Assembly: GCA_001797275.1 (NCBI GenBank)
Contig: MGOY01000003.1
Coordinates: forward strand, 1-64,000
Length of the DNA stretch: 64,000 nucleotides
DNA from: Clostridiales bacterium GWF2_38_85
Lineage (GTDB): Bacteria; Bacillota; Clostridia; Oscillospirales; CAG-382
Direction: 5' to 3'
Shown here: piece after piece, positions 16,371 to 61,690 of the stretch
How positions within the stretch are numbered: position 1 is the stretch's first letter
Layout of the letters: each line of letters starts with the position of its first letter
Notes under the pieces: generated by a model
The model's database searches: none
Told to the model about the DNA's origin: nothing
The model's input: the letters and a program-made list of their open reading frames with translations, nothing else
Translations under genes and position numbers: made by a program

Positions 16371-16394
16371 TACTGTTTCTAAATCGAATTAGTA
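16371..16394. repeat. Solo 24-bp E1 terminal unit at the copA stop
   Basis: TACTGTTTCTAAATCGAATT followed by AGTA; in reverse complement this matches the left terminal unit of the E1 element at 58072 over 23 of 24 bases. It is flanked by TAA on both sides (16368-16370 and 16395-16397), the same 3-bp duplication seen at full E1 copies. The left TAA is the copA stop codon. Confidence 0.6.
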
Positions 16395-22701: not shown

Positions 22702-24891
22702 TCAACTCTTTTTGATTTCGTTTGCTTTTGCCAATGCTTGCGCAAATGCTGACAATGTCGGTGTTTCTTTTTGTTGTGAATCAAGATATTTGCGAACTTC
22801 GTTTTTAGAAGCGCCGTCATGGTTTTCAGAAAGCCGTTTGTTGAATGAGTCATATTTTTCACGGAAACCGCAGGTATGACAAATATATATTTTCTTGTCC
22901 CCTTCACCAAAAACTTCAAGCTTTTTGTGGCAGTTGGGACAGCGAGCATTACTCAAATAGGATAGATTCTGGCGATAACCACATTCGCGGTCAGGGCAAG
23001 TAAGCATTTTGCCATGTTTACCATTGATTTCAAGCAAAAATTTGCCGCATTGCGGGCAGGGTGTGCGTGTTGCATTATCATGTCGATAGTTAGCATCACT
23101 CGCAATGACACCGCTGACAAGGTGCGTGGTATAGCTTCTGATTTCATCAGTGAAGGTCTTTTGCTGCAGAGAACCTCGACTGATAAGCGTTAATTTTTGT
23201 TCCCATTTCGCAGTAAGCTCGGGTGATCTCAAATCCTCCGGAACCAGCCCGATAAGCTGTACGCCCTTGCTTAAGGGAATAATATCTTTACCGCGGCGTT
23301 CAACATAATTCGTTGCAAAAAGCTTCTCGATTATATCAGCACGTGTTGCCGGTGTACCCAAGCCGTTTGAGGCATCCATTACAGTACGCAGCTGGTTGCT
23401 TTCGATAAATTTGCCGGGATGCTCCATCGCAGTGAGCAGTGTAGCCTCATTGTAACGCGCAGGCGGTTTTGTTTTTCCTGTGCCAAGTTTTACACGCGTT
23501 ACAGTGAAGGATTGTCCTTTTTTTACGTCGGGCAGCATCTGTTCTTTTTCGTCCTCGGAATCATCATAATCCTGCACTGCGTTATCATAAATCGCTTTCC
23601 AACCCTTTTGAATAACAATCTTACCCTGGGCAGTGAAAAGCTCATCGCCGCATTCTGCTGTCAAGGTTACTTGCTCATATTCGAAATCTGAGCTGAGTAC
23701 AGCAAGAAAGCGTTTAACCACCAGATCATAAACCCTGCGTTCATCATTGTCTAACTTCGCAAGCTCAACATACTGCTCGGTTGGAATAATTGCATGATGA
23801 TCACTGACCTTCGTATCATCGACAAAATGTTTTGAAGCATGTATTCCCTGACGCAGTATTGCTTTTACAAAAATACTGTAAGAGCCGATGTTTATGCTGT
23901 TAAGGCGCTCAGTCAACGTCGGTACGATGTCTGTTGTAAGATAGCGTGAATCGGTGCGCGGATAAGTCAGCAGTTTGTGTTTCTCATACAACTGCTGCAT
24001 AATACCCAGTGTTTGTTTTGCCGAGAAGCTGTAGCGGCGGTTAGCATCTCGCTGAAGCTCGGTCAGGTCGTATAAAAGCGGAGCTGACTCTTTTTTATGT
24101 TCACGGCGTACCTCTGTTATAGTCATTACGCCCTTTTCTATTTTATGGACAACCTCTTCCGCTCTTGCTTTGTCAAACGTACGCATCTGCATGGATTTCT
24201 TGTCTTTCCAATACATATCGAATGTCGCCAGTGAAGCTGACACTGTAAAATATTCACGCGCAGAGAATTTGCGTATTTCTTCCTCACGCTCAACGATCAT
24301 AGCGAGTGTCGGAGTCTGGACGCGGCCTGCCGAGAGCTGAGCGTTGTATTTACAGGTCAAAGCGCGTGTTACATTGAGTCCGACAAGCCAATCTGCTTGT
24401 GCGCGGCAGAGTGCCGAATAAAAAAGATTGTCATATTCCCTGGCGGGACGAAGGCTTCTGAAGCCTTCTTTGATCGCCTTATCTGTCTGAGACGATATCC
24501 AAAGCCGTTTTATCGGCTTTTTAAAGCCTGCTTTTTCAATGATCCAGCGCGCAACAAGCTCGCCCTCACGTCCGGCATCGGTTGCTATTACAAGCTCTGT
24601 TACATCGGGATCACGCAGTAAATTTTTAACTGCGTTATACTGCCGCGAGGTTTCTTTTATTACAACAGTGTCGAGCTTTACGGGCAGCATCGGCAGCGTT
24701 TCAAGGTCCCACTTTTTATATTTTTCACCATAATATTCAGGGTCTGCGAGTGTGACAAGGTGACCGAGTGCCCATGTTACTATATATTCGTTTCCCGCAA
24801 TACAGCCTTCACGGCTCTGTTTGCAGCCAAGAACCCTTGCAAGCTCCCTGCCAACTGACGGCTTTTCGGCTAAAACCAGTATTTTGCCCAT
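22702..24891 (-). CDS. topB: DNA topoisomerase III (type IA)
   Basis: 729 residues from ATG 24889-24891, where the family-typical MGKILVLAEKPSVGRELARV begins; the open frame extends further upstream without support. Type IA topoisomerases cut one DNA strand through a Tyr; here Y310 in LLTYPRTDSRYL. The toprim domain has ATDAGREGELVARW and the gate region SAGRVQTPTLAMI. The C-terminus has two four-cysteine zinc modules (CPQCGKFLL ... CPDREC and CPNCHKKLE ... CHTCGF) and a Lys-rich tail. It removes negative supercoils and decatenates replication intermediates. No conjugation genes are nearby, so it is the chromosomal type rather than a marker of an integrative element. Confidence 0.94.
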   Translation of the reverse strand: MGKILVLAEKPSVGRELARVLGCKQSREGCIAGNEYIVTWALGHLVTLADPEYYGEKYKKWDLETLPMLPVKLDTVVIKETSRQYNAVKNLLRDPDVTELVIATDAGREGELVARWIIEKAGFKKPIKRLWISSQTDKAIKEGFRSLRPAREYDNLFYSALCRAQADWLVGLNVTRALTCKYNAQLSAGRVQTPTLAMIVEREEEIRKFSAREYFTVSASLATFDMYWKDKKSMQMRTFDKARAEEVVHKIEKGVMTITEVRREHKKESAPLLYDLTELQRDANRRYSFSAKQTLGIMQQLYEKHKLLTYPRTDSRYLTTDIVPTLTERLNSINIGSYSIFVKAILRQGIHASKHFVDDTKVSDHHAIIPTEQYVELAKLDNDERRVYDLVVKRFLAVLSSDFEYEQVTLTAECGDELFTAQGKIVIQKGWKAIYDNAVQDYDDSEDEKEQMLPDVKKGQSFTVTRVKLGTGKTKPPARYNEATLLTAMEHPGKFIESNQLRTVMDASNGLGTPATRADIIEKLFATNYVERRGKDIIPLSKGVQLIGLVPEDLRSPELTAKWEQKLTLISRGSLQQKTFTDEIRSYTTHLVSGVIASDANYRHDNATRTPCPQCGKFLLEINGKHGKMLTCPDRECGYRQNLSYLSNARCPNCHKKLEVFGEGDKKIYICHTCGFREKYDSFNKRLSENHDGASKNEVRKYLDSQQKETPTLSAFAQALAKANEIKKS

Positions 24892-39169: not shown

Positions 39170-39199
39170 ATTCAATTATCAGATACCTTTTTCTTCAGC

Positions 39200-40057
39200 T
39201 TACTGAAGTAACTGAAGAACGCCCTGAGGTTGTGAGTTAGCCTGTGCAAGCATCGACTGAGCTGCCTGGAGAAGGATGTTGTTCTTTGTGTAGTTCATCA
39301 TCTCTTCTGCCATATCAACGTCTCTTACACGGGATTCTGCTGTCTGAAGGTTTTCCTTCGTTGTTGCCATGTTATTTGAAGCATGCTCAAGCTGGTTCTG
39401 TAATGCACCATAACCCGCTCTTTCGGTATTAACCTCTGTAATCGCATCTTCTACTGATGTTACTGTTACTAAAGCTGCATTTGTTGCAGTTGTAGCAGCA
39501 GCAGTAAGTGTTGTTAATGCACTAAGCTTAGTTGTTGTTGCTTGATCGATTGTTACACTTTGAGTTGCATTTTCACCATATTTAATTGTTGAAGCTGTTC
39601 CGGAACCATCCTGTGCCGTAAGAACACCTGCTGTATTAACCTGTGTGCCAAAAACTGCAATACCATTGAATTTTGTATTAGCATAAATTTCTGATATTGC
39701 TGTACCGAGCGCTTTCATTTCTGAACCTATGTTAACTTTGTCATCATCGCTGTATGTTCCGTTCTGAACTTGAACTGCGAGTTCTTTTATTCTTGTCAAC
39801 ATGTCGGATGCTTCGTTTAAAGCACCTTCAGCTGTCTGAATAAAGGAAATACCATCCTGTGCATTTCTGTTTGCCTGCGTAAGTCCGCGAATCTGGCTTC
39901 TCATCTTGTTCGAAATTGAAAGTCCCGCTGCATCGTCTGCCGCACGGTTAATTCTCGAACCGCTTGAAAGCTTCTCCATGGATTTGTTTGTTGCCACTGC
40001 ATTACTGTTGTACTGGCGATATGTATTCATCGCCGCTACGTTATTACTGATACGCAT
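39200..40057 (-). CDS. fliC: Flagellin 1
   Basis: 285 residues. Like the other three flagellins here it has the conserved N-terminal helices (MRISNNVAAMNTYRQYNSNA, LSSGSRINRAADDAAGLSIS) and the C-terminal helices ending QSMLAQANSQPQGVLQLLQ, which form the filament core; the central 90 residues differ and would face outward. Its N-terminal coding part (from about 39819) and leader are apparently identical to those of flagellin 2. The protein is exported by the FlhA/FlhB/FliPQR gate. The CsrA-type leader hairpin and AAGGAGGAA precede the ATG. Confidence 0.96.
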   Translation of the reverse strand: MRISNNVAAMNTYRQYNSNAVATNKSMEKLSSGSRINRAADDAAGLSISNKMRSQIRGLTQANRNAQDGISFIQTAEGALNEASDMLTRIKELAVQVQNGTYSDDDKVNIGSEMKALGTAISEIYANTKFNGIAVFGTQVNTAGVLTAQDGSGTASTIKYGENATQSVTIDQATTTKLSALTTLTAAATTATNAALVTVTSVEDAITEVNTERAGYGALQNQLEHASNNMATTKENLQTAESRVRDVDMAEEMMNYTKNNILLQAAQSMLAQANSQPQGVLQLLQ

Positions 40058-40065
40058 TTATAATT

Positions 40066-40099
40066 TCCTCCTTGAATTTCTTTCGGGATTCCATTCCCG
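40066..40099 (-). promoter_or_regulatory. CsrA-type leader of flagellin 1
   Basis: On the minus strand CGGGAATGGAATCCCG forms a hairpin with loop AUGGAA, which holds the CsrA core ANGGA. A second ANGGA (AAGGA) lies in the Shine-Dalgarno CAAGGAGGAAA. This two-site arrangement is how CsrA represses flagellin translation in Bacillus, and csrA and fliW lie 3 kb upstream. Confidence 0.7.
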
Positions 40100-40128
40100 T
40101 ATTATTTTTTTATCAGTGTAACTTCAGA

Positions 40129-41028
40129 TTATTGAAGCAACTGAAGAACACCCTGAGGTTGTGAATTAGCTTGTGCAAGCATCGACTGAGCTGCCTGGAG
40201 AAGTATGTTGTTCTTTGTGTAGTTCATCATTTCTTCAGCCATATCAACATCTCTTACACGGGATTCTGCCGACTGCAGATTTTCCTTTGTCGTTGCCATG
40301 TTATTTGCTGCATGCTCAAGTTGATTCTGTTGAGCACCGTAAGCAGCACGGGATGTATTAACTTCAGTTATTGCACTTTCAACTGATGTTACTGTTACAA
40401 GTGCCGCATTTGCTGCTTTAGCTGCAGCATCAGCACCGGTTACTGCACCGGCAGTAAGAGTTGTCATTGCATTAAGATTAGTTGTTGTGGCCTGTAAAAT
40501 ATCGATTGATTGGTTTGCATTCTCACCGTATTTGATTGTAGCAGCTATATCAGCTGCAAGTGGTGTTGCCGGAACTGTCTGTGCATCAAGTATACCGGCA
40601 GATGATGATGCCTGAGTGCCGAATACATCGATACCGTTAAATTTTGTGTTGGTGTAAATCTCGGTTATAGCTGTACCAAGAGCATTCATTTCAGAACCGA
40701 TATTGACTTTATCATCATTACTGTATGTTCCGTTTTGAACCTGAACTGCAAGCTCTTTAATTCTTGTCAGCATGTCGGATACTTCGTTCAAAGCACCTTC
40801 AGCTGTCTGAATAAAGGAAATACCATCCTGTGCATTTCTGTTTGCCTGCGTAAGTCCGCGAATCTGGCTTCTCATCTTGTTCGAAATTGAAAGTCCCGCT
40901 GCATCGTCTGCCGCACGGTTAATTCTCGAACCGCTTGAAAGCTTCTCCATGGATTTGTTTGTTGCCACTGCATTACTGTTGTACTGGCGATATGTATTCA
41001 TCGCCGCTACGTTATTACTGATACGCAT
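40129..41028 (-). CDS. fliC: Flagellin 2
   Basis: 299 residues; D0/D1 helices as in flagellin 1, with a longer, Ala/Thr-rich centre (SSSAGILDAQTVPATPLAAD). Its DNA from 40129 to 40920 is apparently identical to flagellin 3 at 41100-41891, and its start region matches flagellin 1. It is thus the product of unequal crossing-over in an array. The spacer to flagellin 1 contains no strong terminator, so the array may be read as one message or each gene may have its own start. Confidence 0.96.
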   Translation of the reverse strand: MRISNNVAAMNTYRQYNSNAVATNKSMEKLSSGSRINRAADDAAGLSISNKMRSQIRGLTQANRNAQDGISFIQTAEGALNEVSDMLTRIKELAVQVQNGTYSNDDKVNIGSEMNALGTAITEIYTNTKFNGIDVFGTQASSSAGILDAQTVPATPLAADIAATIKYGENANQSIDILQATTTNLNAMTTLTAGAVTGADAAAKAANAALVTVTSVESAITEVNTSRAAYGAQQNQLEHAANNMATTKENLQSAESRVRDVDMAEEMMNYTKNNILLQAAQSMLAQANSQPQGVLQLLQ

Positions 41029-41036
41029 TTATAATT

Positions 41037-41070
41037 TCCTCCTTGAATTTCTTTCGGGATTCCATTCCCG
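41037..41070 (-). promoter_or_regulatory. CsrA-type leader of flagellin 2
   Basis: Identical to the flagellin 1 leader: hairpin CGGGAATGGAATCCCG with AUGGA in the loop and AAGGAGGAAA before the ATG. Position is exactly 971 bp from the flagellin 1 copy. Confidence 0.7.
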
Positions 41071-41099
41071 TATTATTTTTTTATCAGTGTAACTTCAGA

Positions 41100-41999
41100 T
41101 TATTGAAGCAACTGAAGAACACCCTGAGGTTGTGAATTAGCTTGTGCAAGCATCGACTGAGCTGCCTGGAGAAGTATGTTGTTCTTTGTGTAGTTCATCA
41201 TTTCTTCAGCCATATCAACATCTCTTACACGGGATTCTGCCGACTGCAGATTTTCCTTTGTCGTTGCCATGTTATTTGCTGCATGCTCAAGTTGATTCTG
41301 TTGAGCACCGTAAGCAGCACGGGATGTATTAACTTCAGTTATTGCACTTTCAACTGATGTTACTGTTACAAGTGCCGCATTTGCTGCTTTAGCTGCAGCA
41401 TCAGCACCGGTTACTGCACCGGCAGTAAGAGTTGTCATTGCATTAAGATTAGTTGTTGTGGCCTGTAAAATATCGATTGATTGGTTTGCATTCTCACCGT
41501 ATTTGATTGTAGCAGCTATATCAGCTGCAAGTGGTGTTGCCGGAACTGTCTGTGCATCAAGTATACCGGCAGATGATGATGCCTGAGTGCCGAATACATC
41601 GATACCGTTAAATTTTGTGTTGGTGTAAATCTCGGTTATAGCTGTACCAAGAGCATTCATTTCAGAACCGATATTGACTTTATCATCATTACTGTATGTT
41701 CCGTTTTGAACCTGAACTGCAAGCTCTTTAATTCTTGTCAGCATGTCGGATACTTCGTTCAAAGCACCTTCAGCTGTCTGAATAAAGGAAATACCATCCT
41801 GTGCATTTCTGTTTGCCTGCGTAAGTCCGCGAATCTGGCTTCTCATCTTGTTCGAAATTGAAAGTCCCGCTGCATCGTCTGCCGCACGGTTGATTCTCGA
41901 ACCGCTGGAGAGTTTCTCCATAGATTTGTTTGTTGAAACTGCATTGTTGTTGTACTGACGATATGTATTCATCGCCGCTACGTTGTTACTAATACGCAT
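41100..41999 (-). CDS. fliC: Flagellin 3
   Basis: 299 residues, identical to flagellin 2 except near the N-terminus (NNNAVSTNK in place of NSNAVATNK). At the DNA level the difference begins at 41892, upstream of which several silent changes appear at once, marking a recombination boundary. The conserved ends and variable middle are as in other Firmicute flagellins. Leader AAGGAGGAAT and a CsrA hairpin precede it. Confidence 0.96.
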   Translation of the reverse strand: MRISNNVAAMNTYRQYNNNAVSTNKSMEKLSSGSRINRAADDAAGLSISNKMRSQIRGLTQANRNAQDGISFIQTAEGALNEVSDMLTRIKELAVQVQNGTYSNDDKVNIGSEMNALGTAITEIYTNTKFNGIDVFGTQASSSAGILDAQTVPATPLAADIAATIKYGENANQSIDILQATTTNLNAMTTLTAGAVTGADAAAKAANAALVTVTSVESAITEVNTSRAAYGAQQNQLEHAANNMATTKENLQSAESRVRDVDMAEEMMNYTKNNILLQAAQSMLAQANSQPQGVLQLLQ

Positions 42000-42007
42000 T
42001 TAATTAT

Positions 42008-42039
42008 TCCTCCTTGAATTTTTATGGGATTCCATTCCC
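42008..42039 (-). promoter_or_regulatory. CsrA-type leader of flagellin 3
   Basis: On the minus strand GGGAATGGAATCCC (stem of four pairs, loop AUGGAA) followed by AAGGAGGAAT. The flanking bases differ from the other copies, but the loop AUGGA and the Shine-Dalgarno ANGGA are kept, which supports selection on those sites. Confidence 0.65.
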
Positions 42040-42053
42040 TATTTTAGTTACTG

Positions 42054-42899
42054 TTATTGAAGTAACTGAAGAACGCCCTGAGGTTGTGAGTTAGCTTGTG
42101 CAAGCATCGACTGAGCTGCCTGGAGAAGTATGTTGTTCTTTGTGTAGTTCATCATTTCTTCTGCCATATCAACGTCTCTTACACGAGATTCTGCCGACTG
42201 CAGATTTTCTTTTGTCGTTGCCATATTATTGGAAGCGTGTTCGAGTTGGTTTTGCTGAGCGCCGTAGCCAGCACGGGTTGTGTTAACTTCGGTTATTGCG
42301 TTCTCAACAAGAGAAACAGTTACATCAGCTGGAACTGTATCTGCTGTTGCGGTTTCTGCTGTCAATAAAATTAGGTTGGTTACAGTTGCACCGGCTATTG
42401 TAATTGATTGGCTGGCATCTTCACCATACTTAATAGTAGCAGCAGTTCCTGGAGCAGCCGTAGTAAGATTGGTTGTACCTGATTGCGCACCAAAAACAGC
42501 AATTCCGTTAAATTTCGTGTTGGTATAAATTTCTGTTATTGCTGTGCCGAGAGCCTTCATCTCAGAACCGATATTAGTTTTATCATCATCACTATAAGTA
42601 CCGTTCTGAACCTGAACTGAAAGCTCTTTGAGTCTGGTCAGCATGTCGGATACTTCGTTCAAAGCGCCTTCTGCTGTCTGGATGAACGAGACGCCGTCCT
42701 GAGCATTTCTGTTTGCCTGCGTAAGTCCGCGGATCTGGCTTCTCATTTTGTTCGAAATTGAAAGACCTGCTGCATCGTCCGCAGCACGGTTGATTCTCGA
42801 ACCGCTTGAAAGCTTCTCCATGGATTTGTTTGTTGCCACTGCATTACTGTTGTACTGGCGATATGTATTCATCGCCGCTACGTTATTACTGATACGCAT
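42054..42899 (-). CDS. fliC: Flagellin 4 (most upstream)
   Basis: 281 residues; same terminal helices, with a divergent centre (SGTTNLTTAAPGTAATIKYG ... ATVTNLILLTAETATAD). It is the first flagellin after the csrA terminator and so the likely start of the flagellin messages. Codon choice in the N-terminal helix region differs in many silent positions from flagellins 1-3, so it is the older paralogue. Leader with CsrA hairpin and AAGGAGGAAA. Confidence 0.96.
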   Translation of the reverse strand: MRISNNVAAMNTYRQYNSNAVATNKSMEKLSSGSRINRAADDAAGLSISNKMRSQIRGLTQANRNAQDGVSFIQTAEGALNEVSDMLTRLKELSVQVQNGTYSDDDKTNIGSEMKALGTAITEIYTNTKFNGIAVFGAQSGTTNLTTAAPGTAATIKYGEDASQSITIAGATVTNLILLTAETATADTVPADVTVSLVENAITEVNTTRAGYGAQQNQLEHASNNMATTKENLQSAESRVRDVDMAEEMMNYTKNNILLQAAQSMLAQANSQPQGVLQLLQ

Positions 42900-57716: not shown

Positions 57717-57986
57717 TTATTCTTCACTTTTTCTTTTCTTTGTTTTATTGGCATCTTCGTTTTTGGGTTTTTTCAGTTCTTTCTTTACATATAATTCACC
57801 AGTATTTTCGATCAGTTCCTTTTTATATTCCTTTATTTCCCCAATGATCTCATCAGGAGTCTCAATAGCATAATACTTTTTGCCGGTTGTCATTGTTATT
57901 AAAGTATCAGGCATTTGTTCGATAATTTCGATAAGGTCGCTGTTCATGTAGAATTTTTCGAGGTTAAGCTTTGTAAGTTCTATCAT
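57717..57986 (-). CDS. flbD: FlbD family flagellar protein
   Basis: 89 residues: MIELTKLNLEKFYMNSDLIE, IIEQMPDTLITMTTGKKYYA with a Lys-rich C-terminal tail. FlbD/SwrD proteins sit after flgE and raise motor power in Bacillus. In most Clostridia motA, motB and fliL follow; here fliM follows directly. AGAAAGGA precedes the ATG. Confidence 0.9.
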   Translation of the reverse strand: MIELTKLNLEKFYMNSDLIEIIEQMPDTLITMTTGKKYYAIETPDEIIGEIKEYKKELIENTGELYVKKELKKPKNEDANKTKKRKSEE

Positions 57987-58042: not shown

Positions 58043-58253
58043 TTATTAAAACGGTAATTAAATAATACTTATACTAATTCGATTTAGAAACAGTGATAAA
58101 ATTCGAGGAAAAGTCCTTACTTGACGGACTTTTTCGAAGGGTTTTATCTACTGTTTCTTATGAGAAATAGTATTATTTATATGATGTCAAAAAGTCCATA
58201 AGCCAAAGACTTTTCGACATCACGCAATGAATATTTAATTGCCGCATTAATAA
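58043..58253. mobile_element. E2 element (107 bp) with nested E1 (58072-58172)
   Basis: Ends TTATTAAAACGG and CCGCATTAATAA form an imperfect terminal inverted repeat extending about 20 bp. An inner stem ATGTCAAAAAGTC/GACTTTTCGACAT lies at about 58183-58219. A 101-bp E1 (58072-58172, ends TACTAATTC and AATAGTA) is inserted and flanked by TTA on both sides (58069-58071, 58173-58175). Without it and one TTA the element is 107 bp, the size of the E2 copy at 61464-61570, which shows the uninterrupted sequence. The right end abuts the flgE stop codon. Together the two elements form strong hairpins in the operon message. Confidence 0.8.
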
Positions 58254-59138
58254 TTACCTTTTGAGATTTACCAGTTCTTCAAGTATCTGGTCTGATGTTG
58301 TTATTACTCTGGAGTTTGCCTGGAACCCTCTCTGGGCAACAATCATATCTGTAAACTCTTTTGTAAGATCAACGTTTGACATTTCAAGCCCGCCTGAAAC
58401 CAGCGACCCTGTTGCGCTGCTACCGGGAATTGAATAAACAGGTCGACCGGAACTTTTCGTTTCGGTGTAGGTCATATTGCCTTCCTGAGATAATGCATCA
58501 GGATTTGAGAAGGTTGCAAGAGCGAGCTGACCAAGTGTTTCGATCTGAAGCGTTATCGAATTTGTACCTGTAACCTTACCGTCGTTCGATACATAAAGGC
58601 CTGTATAATTTGTAAAATCATCAATTACAATAGGAGTTAAGATGCCATCTTTAATATTTTGTTCCGTATTAGAATCATCAAAGCTTATCAATCCTGTATC
58701 AGGATCTGCGACCGCCTGTGGCATTGAGCCAAGTACAAAGTTGCTGTTTGAATCAATCAGTGCGCCATTTGAGTTGAACTGAAGGCTACCGACTCTTGAA
58801 TAATTTACCTTGCCGGTTGAATCTTGAACAGCGAAATAACCTTCTCCGGATATGTATAAATCAAGAGGTCTCGAAGTCTGCTGATAACCGCTTCTGGTTG
58901 TAAGGACATCAATAGAAGATACAGAAGAACCATAACCGATCTGCATCGGATCTGAACCACCCGAAGTAGCTGTCGGTGCACTTGATGCTGATAATGTCTG
59001 ATAATATAAATCTTTGAAAAGAACTCTGCTGGATTTATACCCTGCTGTGTTTACGTTTGCTATATTATTACCGATAACATCAAGCATAGTCTGATGTCCT
59101 CTTAAACCTGTAACTGCTGAATACATTGATTTTATCAT
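58254..59138 (-). CDS. flgE: Flagellar hook protein FlgE
   Basis: 294 residues. N-terminal MIKSMYSAVTGLRGHQTMLD, VIGNNIANVNTAGYKSSRVL and C-terminal GGLEMSNVDLTKEFTDMIVA with QRGFQANSRVITTSDQILEE are the hook-protein signatures. It is short for a hook protein (commonly 400 or more), so the outer domains are reduced. Position after flgD and TIGR02530 supports FlgE rather than a rod paralogue. Its stop codon borders an E2 element. Confidence 0.9.
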   Translation of the reverse strand: MIKSMYSAVTGLRGHQTMLDVIGNNIANVNTAGYKSSRVLFKDLYYQTLSASSAPTATSGGSDPMQIGYGSSVSSIDVLTTRSGYQQTSRPLDLYISGEGYFAVQDSTGKVNYSRVGSLQFNSNGALIDSNSNFVLGSMPQAVADPDTGLISFDDSNTEQNIKDGILTPIVIDDFTNYTGLYVSNDGKVTGTNSITLQIETLGQLALATFSNPDALSQEGNMTYTETKSSGRPVYSIPGSSATGSLVSGGLEMSNVDLTKEFTDMIVAQRGFQANSRVITTSDQILEELVNLKR

Positions 59139-59217: not shown

Positions 59218-59244
59218 TACTAATTCATTTTATTTGAAACAGTA
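59218..59244. repeat. Solo 27-bp E1 terminal unit upstream of flgE
   Basis: TACTAATTCATTTTATTTGA ending GAAACAGTA, flanked by TTA on both sides (59215-59217, 59245-59247). It matches the terminal unit of the E1 at 58072 with a few changes and three extra bases, and resembles the solo unit at 16371. Confidence 0.55.
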
Positions 59245-61463: not shown

Positions 61464-61570
61464 TTATTAATGCGGTAATTAAATATTCATTGCATGATGT
61501 CGAAAAGTCTTTGACTTATAGACTTTTTGACACCATATAAATAAGGATTATTTAATTGCCGTTTTAATTA
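61464..61570. mobile_element. E2 element, uninterrupted copy
   Basis: 107 bp with ends TTATTAATGCGG and CCGTTTTAATTA, in inverted orientation relative to the copy at 58043-58253. It holds the same inner stem (GATGTCGAAAAGTC/GACTTTTTGACACC). It lies directly upstream of the fliK ribosome binding site and 20 bp from an E1 element. Confidence 0.75.
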
Positions 61571-61590: not shown

Positions 61591-61690
61591 TACTATTCTC
61601 TCATAAAACATTACGTTAAAATTCTGCAAAAAACCCATTAAGCAAAGGTTTTTTCTTGAATTTTATCTATGTTTTTAATCGAGATAAGTA
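61591..61690. mobile_element. E1 element that encodes the fliJ C-terminus
   Basis: 100 bp, ends TACTATTCTC and GAGATAAGTA, closely similar to the E1 at 39052-39151 (shared CTCATAAAACAT, AGCAAAGGTTTT and CTTGAATTTTATCTATG). Flanks are TAA (61588-61590) and TGA (61691-61693), a decayed TNA duplication. Its last 24 bases are read as the final codons and stop of fliJ. Confidence 0.8.

Follow-up and report, generated by a model that had tools for sequence, protein, structure and literature searches.

A MITE-like element inserted into a second MITE-like element between flagellar genes of Clostridiales bacterium GWF2_38_85

Nested and intact elements among the flagellar genes

The window, i.e. the whole 64,000-nucleotide stretch of DNA that was analysed (contig MGOY01000003.1, positions 1 to 64,000), contains flagellar genes that are interspersed with short palindromic elements, here referred to as E1, its sister subfamily E1c, and E2. 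Between the gene for a flagellar rod/hook protein (58254-59138) and flbD (57717-57986), upstream of fliM and with all of these genes on the minus strand, an E2 copy is interrupted by E1. An intact E2 is located just upstream of fliK and adjoins a copy of E1c. The features are as follows.

58043..58071, plus strand: left part of the interrupted E2, from the outer TTATTAA inverted repeat to the first TTA beside E1, aligned to 61464-61570 (minus strand)
58069..58071, no strand: target duplication, left copy (TTA, or else TA at 58070-58071), from the empty-site comparison and the flank statistics over 48 copies
58072..58172, plus strand: E1, MITE-like, 101 bp, an imperfect palindrome with the ends TACTAATTC...GAAATAGTA, from the alignment, the other copies and the DNA fold (z = -7.6)
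58173..58175, no strand: target duplication, right copy (TTA, or else a T of E1 followed by TA at 58174-58175), from the empty site and the flanks
58176..58253, plus strand: remainder of the interrupted E2 to the right of E1, matching the reverse complement of 61464-61544 at 94%
61464..61570, minus strand: intact E2 with the unfilled site, from the alignment and the DNA fold (z = -5.3)
61591..61690, minus strand: E1c, in which the FliJ ORF has its final codons
39052..39151, minus strand: second E1c copy in the window

The E1c copy next to the intact E2 overlaps the 3' end of fliJ at 61667-61690, and the final residues of FliJ (YLSRLKT) and the stop are encoded by the element. Transcribed as minus-strand RNA, the nested pair is predicted to fold at -73 kcal/mol (z -10). 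In the only genome of the same genus, no match for the rod/hook protein was obtained and the orthologous flagellar locus was not located. A separate feature of the window is a region at 39190-42800 with four long tandem repeats of ~970 bp each, which are 79-89% identical.

When 58043-58253 is aligned pairwise to the reverse-complemented 61464-61570, the two are colinear except for one 104-bp gap, which falls where the sequence-only reading of this DNA had placed it. As that reading had also stated, 107 bp remain once 58072-58172 and one TTA are removed, and these match the copy at 61464-61570 (minus strand) at 99 of 107 positions without a gap. The same pairing was recovered by an unguided inverted-repeat search, in which the 81-bp right arm matched 61464-61544 at 94%. 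The exact unfilled sequence AATAATACTTATTTATATG is present in five other E2 copies (L002, L003, L004, L005 and L007), and the C in AATAATCC, the single mismatch that had been noticed across the site, is therefore a substitution private to the 61464 copy. The nested insertion of E1 into E2 is thus real, with backing from the five further E2 copies whose site is unfilled and from the E1 copies, of which dozens have the same ends and confirm the proposed E1 boundaries to within 4 bp; a chance origin of the pattern is excluded. The proposed order of events, E2 before E1, holds at 58043-58253 and gains additional support from the five unfilled copies. It is demonstrated at this copy only, which does not by itself make the E2 family as a whole the older one. 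The empty site at 61464 belongs to a paralogous copy and does not represent the same locus before insertion.

Two families of MITE-like elements

Together, E1 and E1c are present in at least 48 distinct full-length copies in the genome, a count that stems from targeted searches of an incomplete draft of 47 contigs and is hence a lower bound. As E1 recurs elsewhere as full-length E1/E1c copies, it is a discrete unit. Most of the 48 copies have a length of 97-102 bp, while three are longer (124-148 bp), and almost all are intergenic; L073 and L094 were scored within an ORF, both being located near contig starts, where the scoring coordinates were wrong. E2 is represented by about nine copies, seven of them good or moderate besides the two in the window, and resembles E1 in its length of ~100 bp, long imperfect inverted repeats, lack of an ORF, multicopy nature and almost exclusively intergenic position. 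Most E2 copies have TA on both sides, as judged from the flanks. With 101 bp (E1) and 107 bp (E2), both elements are shorter than 200 bp and without coding capacity, fold strongly as DNA and carry terminal inverted repeats, which are imperfect in E1 and read TTATTAA...CGGCAATTAAATA in E2; for E1, a target duplication is indicated by both the empty/filled pair and the flank statistics. Apparently, E1 and E2 are two bacterial MITE families that are undescribed, and the nested pair provides clean end-points for both as well as a relative time order at one locus.

RNAalifold yielded only a weak consensus structure over 45 copies, probably because two subfamilies were mixed, and we make no claim of selection on the stem. 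A scan for Rho-independent terminators found none in E1 or E2, its loop limit of 8 excluding the 9-nt loops of these elements, and Rfam gave no credible match. A search of 62 further genomes from this taxonomic family gave neither E1 nor a related element. Among 84,980 species genomes and among viral contigs, the exact E1 end patterns had no match, and E1 itself had none among plasmids and phages, in collections from which its own genome may be absent. A query with E1c led to a different family of the same order, one genome of which contains a 100-bp homologue flanked by TTA on either side; relative to copy L083, 78 of 102 aligned columns are identical, far above shuffled sequences. Thus, the E1/E1c superfamily extends beyond the species, though in diverged form.

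The central hairpins of E1 (58107-58138), E1c (61627-61650) and E2 (61500-61535; positions approximate) appear to be alike, for example in AAAAAGTCCATA-N-AAAGACTTTTC, while the ends differ. The motif CATATATCAAAG is retained in the distant relative at L129. One copy, L035 (C14:308457-308560), combines E1c ends with an E1-type core, which suggests a possible exchange between the two subfamilies.

Target duplication and mode of insertion

The unfilled site comprises 19 bp, of which a prefix of 12 bp and a suffix of 11 bp are common with the filled site. As the two overlap, 4 bp (TTAT) can be assigned to either side, and from a single empty site the duplication therefore need not be exactly 3 bp long. 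Accordingly, the TTA duplication previously proposed for this site stands as a duplicated flank, the length of which may be 2 rather than 3 bp. Over the full-length E1/E1c copies, identical 3-bp flanks occur in 34/48, compared to ~18 expected with shuffled partners, and the 2-bp flanks match in 41/48 (tallied from the flank table). With all copies turned the same way, the element is preceded by N-TA and followed by T-TA. The outermost T varies in 7 copies on the left but in only 1 on the right (48 copies; binomial p = 0.07), and losses of TA on the two sides, 5 and 7, are about equal. Over the 48 copies, a 2-bp TA duplication gives a fit no worse than that of a 3-bp TTA, and the data lean towards TA with the terminal T belonging to E1, the 3-bp TTA being the other choice.

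Based on these findings, it is very probable that E2 inserted first and that E1 later moved in trans into E2, duplicating TA (or TTA). In the initial step, E2 would have entered the space that separates flbD from the flagellar rod/hook gene. A trans-acting transposase, recognising the gene-less E1 through its ends, may then have cut out or copied E1 and inserted it at T-TA-T within that E2, whereupon TA (or TTA) would have been duplicated. Should the empty 61464 copy instead be secondary, E1 having been precisely excised from it, such excision would have had to recur, since five more E2 copies share the same unfilled sequence and none besides that at 58043 carries E1; the remnants actually observed are 24-bp solos. 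Nothing specific speaks in favor of this scenario, which can hardly be credited.

The nature of the duplication bears on the type of element. A 3-bp TTA/TWA duplication, which would make E1 an element of the IS5/PIF-Harbinger type rather than of the IS630 type, is possible, if somewhat doubtful: it agrees with the identical 3-bp flanks of the 34 copies, TTA in one orientation, and with copy L027, flanked by TAA/TAA, but the unequal variation of the outermost T, as though the right T were the element's own, and the about equal loss of TA on both sides speak against it, as does the lack of a DDE_Tnp_1 transposase in the genome. E1 might also insert without any duplication, 3' of TTA(T) and itself ending in TTA, in the single-strand manner of IS200/IS605-derived elements. 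The single empty site alone is compatible with such a process, and so are flanks that are TTA nearly everywhere, but TA has decayed to the same extent on either side, L027 has AA on both sides, and the long inverted repeats of E1 begin at its very ends, whereas IS200/IS605-derived elements have subterminal hairpins; we consider this mode highly unlikely. A cognate transposase for E1 or E2 was not found in searches for PF01609 and PF13358 in the 47-contig draft. PF01609 (DDE_Tnp_1) had no match in this incomplete genome, while control genomes were positive. The sole PF13358 (IS630-like) transposase belongs to an element with ends that resemble E1 only marginally (25/500 shuffles were as good at the left end) and is not a convincing parent of E1. 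Another MITE, E4, matches the ends of this resident IS630 well (1/500 and 0/500 shuffles as good). A peptide-pattern search for relatives of the IS630 transposase confirmed none. As the genome is an incomplete draft, the parent transposase may simply be missing from the assembly, and we infer that the enzyme which mobilised E1 was a DDE transposase (for a TA duplication, an IS630-like one) that is now absent or was not found. The resident IS630-like transposase (L114 948-2007) is encoded by two ORFs that overlap, with eight consecutive A nearby, an arrangement as for programmed frameshifting.

Solo remnants and other nested insertions

E1 contains two 9-bp direct repeats, and short sequences related to its ends occur alone in the window:

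58086..58094, plus strand: AGAAACAGT, the left of the two direct repeats within E1, close to the end of the element and paired with 58163-58171 in the predicted slippage
58163..58171, plus strand: AGAAATAGT, the right of the two direct repeats, close to the other end of E1
16371..16394, minus strand: solo remnant TACTAATTCGATTTAGAAACAGTA, 24 bp, TTA on both sides, identical to the predicted E1 slippage product
59218..59244, plus strand: solo remnant of divergent sequence, TACTAATTCATTTTATTTGAAACAGTA, again with TTA at either side

A 77-bp deletion between the two repeats predicts the product TACTAATTCGATTTAGAAA[C/T]AGTA; the C form is found exactly at 16371-16394 and the T form exactly at contig C3:71777. 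About ten loci hold only TTA-TACTAATTCGATTTAGAAACAGTA-TTA or a close variant, and a reversed control pattern yielded none. Besides the two in the window, these loci are L089, L090, L094, L096, L099, L101, L102 and L109; nearly all of the solos are flanked by TTA at either end. Single-ended E1 matches as marks of long autonomous elements were ruled out, the matches being 24-bp solos or truncated copies. The simplest reading is that, once E1 had inserted, slippage of replication across its hairpin, from one direct repeat (AGAAACAGT) to the other (AGAAATAGT), gave rise to the solos. That the solos are the smallest mobile unit, moved alone by a transposase to which either half of E1 is a palindromic unit complete in itself, so that E1 would be a solo pair around a hairpin core common to otherwise different MITE families, appears very unlikely. 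With slippage as the origin of the solos, the E1 family would provide, within one genome, a natural record of transposition (full copies) and of hairpin-driven slippage deletion (24-bp solos). Several solos coincide with gene stop codons.

Nearly precise excision of Tn10 proceeds by deletion between short direct repeats near the palindrome ends and leaves a short remnant. The E1 solos are similar with respect to remnant formation, here deduced from sequence, whereas Tn10 is far larger than E1, whose remnant has 24 bp; the Tn10 process is discussed in PMC12524634. Small multicopy hairpin elements like E1 and E2 are also found as RUP, BOX and SPRITE in pneumococcus, with RUP and SPRITE being AT-rich as well. 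This likeness is one of features; host, terminal sequences and copy numbers differ. The Correia/NEMIS elements of Neisseria, with about 100-150 bp, inverted ends, a TA duplication and a hairpin RNA, resemble E1 and E2 in size, inverted ends and hairpin but differ in their terminal sequences. For Correia/NEMIS, RNase III cleavage is mentioned (PMC3049150). RUP has a length of 107 bp and ends like those of IS630-Spn1 (PMC3049150, PMC10969869), whereas no parent IS was found for E1 and E2. Members of RUP, BOX and SPRITE occur in clusters, with insertions of one family into another (PMC3049150, PMC10969869), and the nesting of E1 in E2 is therefore a known kind of event, though an unusually clean one: clear, but ordinary in kind.

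A survey of the E2 copies for further E1 insertions, as had been proposed, revealed no other E2 holding E1; one copy, in C40 (L119 1772-2000; about 23770-23980), is interrupted by a different MITE, the E4 element with IS630-like ends. In addition, the E1c copy L117 (C40:53596-53787) is interrupted by a fourth short element of approximately 85 bp, CCTCCACGCC...GTGGAGG.... With these two further cases, nesting is recurrent in this genome. The insert in L117 apparently lies between CTAA repeats.
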